Assembly (NCBI RefSeq): GCF_003945765.1
Contig: NZ_CP027712.1
Coordinates: forward strand, 1,116,001-1,180,000
Direction of reading: 5' to 3'
DNA: 64,000 nt
From: Pseudomonas chlororaphis subsp. chlororaphis
Lineage (GTDB): Bacteria; Pseudomonadota; Gammaproteobacteria; Pseudomonadales; Pseudomonadaceae
The notes beneath the pieces were generated by a model, which saw only the letters and a list, made by a program, of their open reading frames with translations, ran no database searches and had not been told where the DNA came from. This document shows, piece after piece, positions 8,365 to 40,750 of the stretch. The first letter of the stretch is position 1. Every line of letters begins with the position of its first letter. The translations under genes and the position numbers were made by a program.

Positions 8365-8463
8365 TGTAGCCGCTGCCGAAGGCTGCGATCGGCTCCGCAG
8401 GAGACGTGCTCTTGAGATCGCCGAAGGCCTTCGGCCTTATCGCAGCCTGCGGCAGCGGCTACA
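8365..8463. repeat. REP palindrome, TGTAGCCGCTGCCG family
   Basis: Arms TGTAGCCGCTGCCGAAGGC and GCCTGCGGCAGCGGCTACA surround an inner GCCGAAGGCCTTCGGC stem. A related half-unit (TGTAGCGGCTGCGGCAGGC) lies just to the left at 8321-8339. It lies between the tandem LysR and dehydrogenase genes. Confidence 0.88.
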
Positions 8464-34831: not shown

Positions 34832-36319
34832 TCAGAAGCGCCAGATCACGTCGACAAAGGCGCGGTGCATGTACGAGTCGACGTTCTTGCCATAGGCATC
34901 GCCCGGCTTGAACACGCCGCCACGAAAGCGCACCAGCGCCGAAGGCTCGTCGATCGACTGGCTGAGCGCGGCCGGCAGCAGGCCTTGCTTGAAGTACTTG
35001 GTGACCACCAGGTCCACTTCCTGGCCAAGGTCTTTCTCGCCATCGCGCAGCGGCAGGGACGAGCTGGAGAGCAGGGCGCCGGTGGCGTCGTCGTAGTTGT
35101 TTTCCACGGCGTTGATACCGTTGCTGCCCACCGGCTTGTTGCCGTCCACGCGCCAGAACTTGTGGTAGATCAGGCTGGCGTCGTATTCGTCGGCGAGCAT
35201 CCAGGAACCGAACAGGGTGGCGGTCTGCATGTTGTTCATTTCGCCGCGGAAGGCTTCGCCGAAACGGTGCACCCGCGAGCGGGTCCCGGTGTAGTTCGAG
35301 CGGTTGCTTTCCAGTCCGTTCTGTTCGTAGTCGCCGCTGGCGCGGGCGTAGGCCGCGCCGACCTGCCATTTCGGGTCAAGGCGCAGGCGCACGCCGAGGT
35401 CGGTGGCCCAGCCGTCGAGGCTCTCGCCGCTCTTGGCCTGGGCCGGGCGGGTGCCGTCGGCGTTCAGCGCGTTGACCTTGTCGCGGTCGCCGCTCATGCC
35501 GGTGATGCTCGCCCAGTAGTTGACGGTGTTGGTGTTGCGCCAGTTGTAGGCGTCGCTGTTGGCTTCCAGGCCAAGCCAGGTCAGGTCACCGTTCTGGCGC
35601 TTGTCCAGGGAGTCGGTGGCTTCGCCCGGGACCGGGTAGTCGAGCTTGCCGTCGTCGTGGCTGTGGTGAGCGCGCACGCCAGCCCAATGCCCCGGGGTCC
35701 ACTGGTAGGCCACATCGCCGTAGACATGCAGGCGATCCTTGTCTTCCGGCGCCAGCTCCTTGAGGTCGGTGCGGTACTCGCTGAAGCGCTCGGCGATGCC
35801 GACGTTGGCGCGCAGCAGGGTGGTGTCGAAGGTCCAGTTCAGGGCTTCGATGTTGGTGTCGCGCCATTGGCCGTCGTCGTTGCGCAGGCGCTGGCGACCG
35901 AACTTCAACTGCTCGCCCGGGTAGGGGGTGAGGCCGCTGTAGCCGATCCAGAACTCGCGCATCGCCAGGTAGTTCTTCTTGCTCTTGCGGTCGCTGTTGT
36001 TGCTGCTTTCGGTGCTGGCGCCGTCGGACTGCTGCAGGGTGTCGGTCTCGATGATATCGGTCGAGGTCACCGCCTGGCCCATGGCGTAGGCGCTCCAGTT
36101 GCCGCTTTCGCCGTAGACCCAGGGCCGCAGGTCGAGGCCGACGCCGTTGACGTCGCCGCCGCCCAGGGTGCCGAGGTCACGGTCGTCTTCGGACTGGCCG
36201 GTGATCTTCACTTCCAGGCCGAAGTTCTTGCTCTCGGTGATGGCCGCGAGCGTCGGACAGGACCAGATCAGGGCGAAGCTCAGGCCGATACCGGCCTTCA
36301 CGAATGGATTCAACTTCAT
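34832..36319 (-). CDS. algE: Alginate outer-membrane secretin AlgE
   Basis: A 495-residue outer-membrane beta-barrel (18 strands in known AlgE) that exports alginate. Signal peptide [20 protein letters not shown]; alternating amphipathic strands with arginine-rich pore residues; C-terminal Phe in VIWRF as required for barrel assembly. Acidic loops such as [10 protein letters not shown] and [10 protein letters not shown] are surface-exposed. It overlaps algK by four bases (ATGA), and AlgK and AlgE act together at the outer membrane. Confidence 0.96.
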
Positions 36320-37872
36320 AGGGATTCCTCACCGTCTTCTTCCTGCAGCGCGTGCAGTTCCAACGTGTTCTGGCTCAAGGCGCCACGCACGGCCTGCTCC
36401 TGTTGCAGCAGGCGTTGGGCCTCGGCGCGTTGGCCTGGCGGCAGTTGGGCTTCGAGTTGTTGCGCAAGCTCGTTGGCTTGCGGGGTGTCCTGGGTCTTGG
36501 CCAGCTGGCTGAAGACATAGGCGTTGAGCGGGTCGGGCTTGGTGCCCTTGCCCTGGGAGAACAGCTGGGCGATGGCGAAGTCGGCGCTGTTCTGGCCGTT
36601 GCGCGCGGCGGTCAGCAGGTGGTCCAGGGCTTTTTGCGGATAGACCTGGCCCAGGTAGCCGCGGCGGTAGATCTGGCCGAGGTAGTAATCGGCGGCGACT
36701 TCCTTGCCCTGGGCCTTCTTGAAGTGTTCTTCGGCGACCTTGGCGTCGGCCGGGACCATCTTGCCTTCGTAGTAGAGCTTGCCCAGCAGCAGTTCGGCGC
36801 GGGGCTGGTCGGCGGCGCGACCGTTGTCCAGGTACTGCATCATCTTGTCGACGTCGCCGAGTTCAGGGAAGTCGTAGAGCAGCTGCGCCAGGGTGACCCA
36901 GGAGGCGGGGTAGGCGGGAGCGATCGGCTCCAGCAGCGCCTGCGCGGTTTTCTCGTCGGTCTTGCCCAGGCTCGCATCGCCCAGCACCCGGGCCACGCTG
37001 TCGACCCGTTGCGCGCTGATGGCGCCGCGGGCGTGGCCGGCCTGCAGCTGTTTGAGCAGCTCGGCCTGTTGCTCCGGCTGGCCGCGTTTCTGGTACACGG
37101 TGGCCAGTTCGACGTAGCAGATATCGGTGACGTTCAGAGCCGCCTTGCAGATGGTTTCCACCTCGGCCAGGTGCTGGTCGTAGGTACCCTGGGTGCGATA
37201 CAGCAGCACCTGGGCCAGGCCGGCTTCCGGGTAGCCGGCGCTGCGCCATTGGCTGATCTGCTGCTGGGCGTTGACCTTGGGGAAGCTCTGCGGATATTGC
37301 AGGTAGAGCATCGCCAGCGGGATCAGGGTGTTGCCTTCACCATTGGCGAAGGCCTTTTTCAACAGGCCTTCGGCTTCGTGGTGCTCGGCTTCGGTGGAGC
37401 CGGGCTTGGCCACCAGCAGGCGACCCAGGCGCGCCTGGGCCCGCGGCGAAGTGTCGGCCGCGGCGCGGTAGGTCGCCTCGGCTTGCTTGATCTTCGCCGG
37501 GTCGCGGGTTTCCATCTGGATATCGGCCAGGCCGACCTGGGCGTCGCTGTAACCCAGGTCCGCCAGCTGCCGGTAGTTCTGCTCCGCGAGCACGGTGTCG
37601 CCGCGCTTCAGGGCTTCGTTGGCCAGGCGCTGGTCGGGCAGGCCGGCGCAACCGGCCAGGGCCATGGCGGTCACCAGAGGCAACAGCAATGCCGAACCCT
37701 GTAGCCGCTGCCGCAGGCTGCGATCGGCCGCGTAGCGGACGGGTTCCGGACGGCGCGCTGTGTTCGCCAGACCGCATTCATCCCCTTCACGAGTGCGTTG
37801 CACTCGATCGCAGCCTGCGGCAGCGGCTACAGGGGCCGTTTTCGTCATCGGGAGTGGGGTATGAATATTCAT
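36316..37872 (-). CDS. algK: Alginate secretion lipoprotein AlgK, with in-frame REP insertion
   Basis: A TPR-like outer-membrane lipoprotein that helps assemble AlgE. The mature part [27 protein letters not shown] and Sel1/TPR repeats are typical. Here the frame from the ATG at 37872 is 518 residues instead of about 475. The extra 46 codons (residues ~14-59) are exactly a TGTAGCCGCTGCCG palindrome lying between [14 protein letters not shown] and the hydrophobic signal [14 protein letters not shown]. The frame stays open. Either a long n-region signal is tolerated, an internal non-ATG start is used, or the gene is impaired. It overlaps algE by four bases and starts three bases after alg44. Confidence 0.9.
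37697..37834. repeat. REP palindrome inserted within algK
   Basis: A perfect pair of ~30-bp arms begins CCCTGTAGCCGCTGCCGCAG and ends CTGCGGCAGCGGCTACAGGG. Total length is 138 bp, divisible by three, so algK remains in frame. Confidence 0.92.
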
Positions 37873-37874
37873 GG

Positions 37875-39044
37875 TTAGAGACCGGCAGCCATGGCTTTGT
37901 CGATCAGCCAGTTCACAGACGGGCCGCGATCGCTGCTGACTTCCACCGGGCGGCCGGCGAAGGCGCTGCTCAGCGGGGCGTCGGGCTTGATCTGCACGCG
38001 AATGTCCGAAGACAGGTCGCTGCTGTTGAGGCTGGTGCTGCTGACGATGGTGCCGCTGCGTACGTCGTCTTCGCCGGCGATCTGGAAGCTGACCTTGGTC
38101 CCCGGACGCACGTCGGCGAACTGGCGGTAGGAGAAGCGCGCTTCGACGTTGGCCTGGCTGTTACGCGGGACCAGCTGGAAGATCACGTCGCCCTTGCTGG
38201 CGTACTGGCCGTCGGCAACCATTTGCTGGGCCACGGTGCAGTCGCAGGGCGAGGTCAGGGTGCCGGTCATCTGCTTGCCGAACAGTTCCTCGACCTTGGC
38301 CGGTTGCAGCTGGTCTTCGTTCAGATGGCCCTTGAGCACGTCGAGCATGCTGGTGCTGAAGGTCGCCAGCGGGGCGCCCTTGGCGGCCACGCCGTCGGCC
38401 TGGATCAGGCTCTGCACGGTGCCGTCGCGCGGCATGGTGACGTTCATCCCCGGCGCGCTGACCAGGCCGGCCTGGGCGTGGCTGACGAAGTACATGCCGT
38501 ACACTGACTTGAGGATGAAGCCGAAGGCCGCCAGGCCAACGACGAAGATCCCGGCGCTGAAGGTCACCGCGCGCAGGCGGCCCAGGGCGCTCATGCCGTG
38601 GCCGGCGTCCTTGTTCTTGCGCGCCTTGGTGAAGTTGTCGCGCTGCAGGGTGGCGAGCACGTCGCCCATGGTCACGATGTCGCCGGCCAGGTGCGAGGTG
38701 ATCAGCTGGCGCAGGGTCGAGATGTCCTGGGGCTCGAGGTTCTGGAACTGGCAGCCGACCCGGCCGCTCTGGCGATCCACGGAGCGCACCTGCAACTCCA
38801 CGTCCATGGCCAGCCCGAGGTTGTCGATGACGAACTGCAGGCGACCCTTGTGCACGTCGCCGACCTTGATCGGCAACTGCCCGCAGTTGAAGCTCAGGCC
38901 GCCGGCGGAGAGGTCGATGACCCGCGCCTCGACCGGGGTCCGGTCGGGGCCGAAGAAGCGCAGCTTGGCCGGGATCTTGACCCGGGCGTGTTGGCGTTGG
39001 GCTTCGGATTCATGCACTACATTGACGTTCACGGCGGTGTTCAT
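37875..39044 (-). CDS. alg44: Alginate co-polymerase with PilZ domain, Alg44
   Basis: A 389-residue inner-membrane protein that activates polymerisation when it binds cyclic di-GMP. The N-terminal PilZ domain shows RQHARVKIP (the RxxxR motif, residues 17-21) and DLSAGGLSF (DxSxxG). One membrane helix (FSAGIFVVGLAAFGFILKSVYG) precedes an HlyD-like periplasmic domain (PRDGTVQSLIQADGVAAKGAPLATF). Both c-di-GMP motifs are intact, so post-translational control of alginate by c-di-GMP is expected. Confidence 0.97.
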   Translation of the reverse strand: MNTAVNVNVVHESEAQRQHARVKIPAKLRFFGPDRTPVEARVIDLSAGGLSFNCGQLPIKVGDVHKGRLQFVIDNLGLAMDVELQVRSVDRQSGRVGCQFQNLEPQDISTLRQLITSHLAGDIVTMGDVLATLQRDNFTKARKNKDAGHGMSALGRLRAVTFSAGIFVVGLAAFGFILKSVYGMYFVSHAQAGLVSAPGMNVTMPRDGTVQSLIQADGVAAKGAPLATFSTSMLDVLKGHLNEDQLQPAKVEELFGKQMTGTLTSPCDCTVAQQMVADGQYASKGDVIFQLVPRNSQANVEARFSYRQFADVRPGTKVSFQIAGEDDVRSGTIVSSTSLNSSDLSSDIRVQIKPDAPLSSAFAGRPVEVSSDRGPSVNWLIDKAMAAGL

Positions 39045-40648: not shown

Positions 40649-40750
40649 TGTAGCCGTTGCCGGAGGCTGCGATAGGTCCGCAGGACCTCCGGCGGTTGCA
40701 GGTACGTCGCGACCCTTCGGGTTCGATCGCAGCCTGCGGCAGCGGCTACA
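40649..40750. repeat. REP palindrome, TGTAGCCGTTGCCG variant
   Basis: Arms TGTAGCCGTTGCCGGAGGCT and AGCCTGCGGCAGCGGCTACA; lies in the leader between algD and alg8, where it could shape the relative mRNA level of algD versus the downstream genes. Confidence 0.88.

Follow-up and report, generated by a model that had tools for sequence, protein, structure and literature searches.

Palindromic REP-type elements recur in frame in the predicted signal-peptide region of AlgK across Pseudomonas

Rickettsia palindromic elements (RPEs) lie in frame inside genes without destroying them, and N-terminally decorated proteins are expressed, according to the available text of PMC3733652. The same article (Di Nocera et al. 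2013) describes intragenic GTAG REPs in ORFs, some of them near the N-terminus, Pseudomonas included; the available passages do not mention algK. In the P. fluorescens work, an inverted pair of REPs around a spacer makes up a REPIN; the available part of PMC3116915 studies REPINs as extragenic sequences, and that of PMC3686654 does the same for the REP classes PF1-PF22. A second REP, REPb, occurs in large numbers in P. chlororaphis but is less frequent in P. protegens Pf-5; RAYTs are associated with REPb, and the Pf-5 genome has 999 REPa copies and an inactivated RAYT (available text of PMC3390384). Intragenic REPs are, then, known; for repeated, translated insertion into a single signal peptide, a PMC search combining REPs with AlgK, signal peptides or coding sequence gave no title or abstract start that describes such a case.

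The DNA analysed here (the window, 64,000 nt) covers positions 1116001-1180000 of a single 6.8-Mb contig, which appears to belong to P. chlororaphis or a species very near it. The algK product matched the AlgK structure 3e4b and AlgK of P. chlororaphis (cluster P0001). The top protein cluster, at 97% identity and with 159 members, was AlgK of P. chlororaphis subsp. piscium, and its representative has a diverged copy of the insert described below. The gene lies between alg44 upstream and algE downstream (families assigned by Pfam), and the relevant features are the following:

36316..37872, minus strand: algK ORF, 518 aa, frame open; alginate-export TPR lipoprotein with Sel1 repeat by Pfam
37875..39044, minus strand: alg44 (PilZ/HlyD by Pfam), directly upstream of algK, its stop 2 nt before the algK ATG
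37870..37872, minus strand: start ATG of algK, two bases past the alg44 stop, shared by close relatives whether or not they carry the element
37697..37834, minus strand: REP palindrome (REPIN-like), 138 nt, in frame as 46 codons, no stop
37805..37834, minus strand: left arm in algK orientation, 30 nt, perfect complement of the right arm
37697..37726, minus strand: right arm in algK orientation, 30 nt, perfect complement of the left arm
37651..37695, minus strand: hydrophobic h-region and lipobox of the signal peptide, 3' of the element, named by inspection
37648..37650, minus strand: lipobox Cys codon, predicted mature residue 1; the 3e4b chain aligns from the next residue

An earlier note, made from the sequence of the window, had described an exact, stop-free REP palindrome of 46 codons inside algK and a signal-peptide n-region of about 60 residues. 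Both descriptions stand: perfect 30-nt arms enclose a 78-nt spacer, the element extends from base 3 of codon 13 to base 2 of codon 59, and the region ahead of the Cys comprises 74 residues with an n-region of about 59. The ATG next to the alg44 stop is common to six relatives aligned with the window. The P. chlororaphis AlgK database cluster begins at the ninth residue (510 aa), and both of these starts precede the element. Start-like codons are also found in frame 3' of it, namely two TTG, one GTG and one ATG, the last of these 5 codons before the Cys. Since the element lies wholly upstream of the lipobox Cys, it is expected to leave with the signal peptide and should be discarded with it. 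Because the solved AlgK chain aligns from the residue after the Cys, the element would touch the pre-region only, and mature AlgK is predicted to be unaffected in sequence.

The identity of the element as REP-type is safe, while its mobilisation by a resident RAYT is a candidate only. The motif TGTAGCCGCTGCCG occurs 19 times in the window at up to 2 mismatches, against 1.26 expected by shuffling, and, at up to 1 mismatch, 744 times in the genome (362 and 382 on the two strands) against 52 (22 and 30) for a reversed-pattern control. The 18-mer TGTAGCCGCTGCCGCAGG has 264 exact copies in the source genome and none for the control; among the 15 genomes searched, it was also found in G372 (262), G346 (192), G082 (166), G314 (45), G094 (38) and G382 (3), and was absent from the remaining 8. 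As in described REPs and REPINs, the element is thus a many-copy sequence arranged as an inverted pair, and its arm opens with a GT(A/G)G tag (CCCTGTAGCC). It departs from them in location, lying inside the algK frame with start codons ahead of it. We collected 57 distinct complete elements of 99-147 nt from motif end to motif end, a set partly chosen by likeness to the algK insert. In the tables of PMC3686654, none of the 22 REP classes is identical to TGTAGCCGCTGCCG, although other arms found in algK loci, GTGGGAGCGAGCTTGCTCGCGAT, GTGGGAGCTGGCTTGCCAGCGAT, GTAGGAGCGAGCTTGCTCGCGA and GTGGCGAGGGAGCTTGCTCCCGCT, match classes described there. The motif of the window is, like REPb in the available text of PMC3390384, abundant in the P. 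chlororaphis lineage, and we infer that it is REPb by this likeness in abundance rather than by consensus.

At E <= 0.001, PF01797 (RAYT/Y1 transposase) matched 5 of 14 control genomes but nothing in the source genome (G000), which nevertheless carries hundreds of REP copies. Its RAYT may have been lost or may be too divergent for PF01797. The same operon contains one more copy of this family, apparently extragenic, in the interval between algD and alg8 (window 40649-40750). Another (window 8365-8463), within an open frame, closely precedes a 2-hydroxyacid dehydrogenase gene; as the encoded domain begins well downstream of the element, this copy was read as lying upstream of the gene. Besides algK, 26 stop-to-stop ORFs of at least 250 aa span one of the 57 complete elements; Pfam searches of 17 of them gave families above the cut-off for one, the dehydrogenase just mentioned, a match below the cut-off only for another (L070) and none for the other 15.

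We then surveyed the alg44-algK junction in other genomes. A search of relatives gave a match in 44 of 57 (Sel1-repeat paralogues counted), and algK-level matches (E <= 1e-90) were obtained in 355 of 398 genomes of the genus. The 260 algK loci studied, some of them duplicates, comprise the best 30 each of the relatives and genus searches, the best 80 of 365 named contigs and 120 lower-scoring genomes picked by handle from the genus match list. All but one (L236) were parsed, and these 259 loci gave 228 distinct junctions, measured between the alg44 stop and the Cys, of which 96 were shorter than 110 nt and 132 longer. A strong palindrome, defined by an inverted-repeat score of at least 24 and with L030 left out despite reaching that score, was present in 119 of the 228, whereas the score never exceeded 16 in the 96 short junctions. 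In one genome (G034:C1:2057208-2058580), algK was recovered as two overlapping matches, perhaps through a frameshift or an assembly error. The insert of the window does not look like the oddity of one strain: in-frame palindromic inserts occupy the same spot in 119 of 228 distinct Pseudomonas junctions, which bears out the suggestion that a REP-type palindrome can be tolerated as coding sequence.

Within the palindrome, the algK frame has stops in none of the 119 junctions, compared with 82 and 57 in the other two frames; these 119 are not independent, as many share ancestry and arms may have been swapped by gene conversion. Over all 132 longer junctions, the corresponding counts are 1, 103 and 114, and the sole algK-frame stop belongs to L030, a distant species with a 340-nt spacer. 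An in-frame start ahead of the left arm is present in all 119; L190 has an in-frame stop six bases past the alg44 stop, ahead of its ATG. A chance open frame in GC-rich DNA is ruled out by the stops in the other two frames of the same DNA. As a null, 36 elements of the source genome, drawn from the window and the first 30 loci and including the one in algK, were placed in every orientation and phase; 34 of the 216 resulting combinations were free of stops and had a length divisible by three. For 36 REP pairs of three other genomes, the figure was 40 of 216, so that 16-19% of the combinations of sampled genomic elements pass. A larger collection of 57 elements gave 69 of 342 but was enriched by likeness to the algK insert and was not taken as a null. 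As in RPEs, insertion keeps the frame relative to an unfilled homologue (L041 against L037 and L001). Taken together, the frame and stop statistics indicate, at the level of sequence comparison, that the inserts are read.

The inserts fall into eight types by family, pair orientation and reading frame, one of the TGTAG type and seven GTRG-type REP combinations. Three of the 119 were left without a type, and a separate class of three (L154, L138, L153) was dropped because its right-arm anchor lay on flanking bases. If the types are independent, the chance that all eight would be frame-compatible at 18.5% each is about 1e-6, although eight may overcount the insertions, as paired indels could shift the frame of an arm. 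The differing families, pair orientations and frames rule out one ancestral insertion for all, although a single insertion probably accounts for many fluorescens-group members. Trees of algK gave 31-40 changes between presence and absence, varying with the tree and the support threshold. These counts are unreliable because two leader alleles, the LPVPLALAIALAGC and VCALALAVSLAGC types, occur at dispersed places in the algK tree (fluorescens group, e.g. L002/L004/L050 vs L003/L012), suggesting recombination at the algK leader, which probably inflates them. Single-linkage clustering of spacers by shared words was not used, as most chain into one cluster (94 of 119 with 9-base words). Nested REP pairs, inside another REP pair within algK and with the frame open, were observed in L044/L125, L235/L262 and L153/L158.

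The arm motifs are multicopy in most genomes tested, with a control of 0. A generic arm pattern searched in 41 genomes gave counts of up to 1421 (G009) and a control of 0 throughout. Four filled genomes (G110, G247, G292 and G306) had at most 10 matches, their arms having one extra base or a divergent core, and the source family of their inserts was, therefore, left unassigned by this pattern. One variant arm, found in algK of both G360 and G004, has 105 exact copies in the former and only 4 in the latter. The short in-frame leaders of L033, L036, L093 and L202 look like deletion remnants of the inward-facing REP pair of L035/L039/L017.

An alignment of algK 5' ends across relatives, proposed in the earlier note together with a search for the precise empty site, showed that the same 46 codons are not shared by all: the element is common to the P. 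chlororaphis lineage, other Pseudomonas carry other REP families in this interval, and L041, a close relative aligned with the filled L037, L038, L114, L034, L032 and L001, is unfilled. At this site, L041 reads CAACTCGCGGTGTTGCC, where L037 has CAGCTCTCTGTAG...CTACAGGGTTCGGTGTTGCC. The sequence to the right of the element is common to L001 and L037, so a single insertion in their common ancestor is likely; in L041, the element may never have been present or may have been lost. Between the sister species L001 and L032, the insert accumulated 4 synonymous and 11 non-synonymous base changes in 45 codons, compared with 46 synonymous and 10 non-synonymous in the 444 codons of the mature part (Fisher p = 1e-4). 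In this pair, the amino acids of the insert appear to change almost freely while the mature protein is conserved. The arms have also decayed with the frame still open, being mismatched in L032 and further degraded in L034 (score 27 vs 60 in L001).

This decay bears on the best-surviving alternative, namely that the palindrome is kept as an RNA hairpin tuning algK translation or mRNA stability within the alg operon, with translation of the insert a mere side condition. REPs between the genes of an operon can tune translation or mRNA stability, the site is the alg44-algK junction, many arms are near perfect, and the predicted fold in the window is very stable (-128.3 kcal/mol for 37650-37890, z = -6.5). 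A regulatory hairpin is nevertheless disfavoured because the arms decay while the frame is kept, as the scores of L034 and L001 illustrate; the weak or shortened inserts of L202, L198, L286, L287, L036 and L033 likewise stay open, and 96 of the 228 junctions have a short gap with no inverted repeat above the score given earlier. We, thus, regard this explanation as unlikely.

Signal-peptide n-regions need to be hydrophilic and are usually positively charged. The mean best 15-residue hydropathy of the inserts is -0.28 in the algK frame, compared with 0.73 and 0.45 in the other frames, a comparison confounded by shared ancestry and by the dropping of stops from the other frames. The median net charge of the n-region is +4 in filled and +1 in unfilled loci, though 6 of 119 filled n-regions lack a net positive charge (13 of 119 for their last 20 residues). 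A crude pattern for SD-like motifs found one ahead of the start in only 45 of 119. The higher charge, together with the frequency of filled n-regions among the fluorescens-group loci studied, could be taken to mean that a long n-region is adaptive in itself and that REPs merely supply the sequence, and extended signal peptides are adaptive in some secreted proteins. However, no sequence constraint is visible in the one sister pair compared (L001/L032), the lengths ahead of the Cys vary from 42 to 85 residues, and some relatives (L041, L002, L050) do without an insert, so that we consider adaptive length distinctly improbable.

Least tenable of all, and in our view very improbable, is that the REPs are truly extragenic, with the real algK start 3' of the element and the upstream frame open by chance, a view that the available text of PMC3733652 takes of most N-terminal REPs in P. 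putida and two further species, which it considers non-coding. In 50 of the 119, an in-frame ATG (14) or GTG/TTG (36) lies past the right arm with 12 or more codons left before the Cys, and translation may start there. The other 69 have no such codon, which rules out the internal start considered in the earlier note as a general account; the cross-species frame test in algK points the opposite way, with in-frame stops in 0 of 119 against 82 and 57 in the other frames, and filled and unfilled alleles share the same start context (EDMPVT or TAACCATG).

We, thus, favour the interpretation that the AlgK n-region is a recurrent, frame-filtered landing slot for REPINs that are translated and then removed, which the sequence evidence makes highly probable. 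Comparison of the junctions shows presence and absence of the element, a frame constraint, a loose amino-acid constraint (in one sister pair) and many element types. An element of the TGTAGCCGCTGCCG family, REPIN-type, would have entered just past the algK start before P. chlororaphis and its near relatives split. Ribosomes would start at the ATG by the alg44 stop, or eight codons later, and read the 46 codons of the element before the h-region and lipobox. In lipoprotein processing, the extension ahead of the lipidated Cys is removed; signal peptidase II would accordingly be expected to take off the whole extension, leaving mature AlgK unchanged. We infer this translation and cleavage, and an absence of fitness effect, from sequence. 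The n-region would tolerate length and sequence provided that the insert is in frame and hydrophilic, and only stop-free insertions of suitable length would survive. Across Pseudomonas, other REP families would have occupied the same slot time and again, in some cases as REPs nested within REPs, and the slot would act as a filter in which frame-keeping insertions survive because their peptide is thrown away. As far as the available text of PMC3733652 describes them, RPEs are similar in being palindromic repeats in frame within genes that are not destroyed. They differ in that many genes are hit in Rickettsia, whereas several REP families have repeatedly entered a single gene here, and in that the peptide of the algK insert is expected to go with the signal peptide.

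By definition, REPs are extragenic, and their occurrence inside genes near the N-terminus has been ascribed to misannotated starts. One practical consequence is that the starts of Pseudomonas AlgK proteins should not be cut to the standard leader length. A single gene entered by several REP families across a genus amounts to a natural experiment. More tentatively, and with somewhat less than an even chance in our estimation, REPINs of many families, nested ones included, may be self-discarding peptides that now supply the n-region itself, which would give this extragenic mobile DNA a second, coding niche in secreted proteins. Cleaved leader regions may, in this way, offer mobile DNA a low-cost entry into coding sequence.
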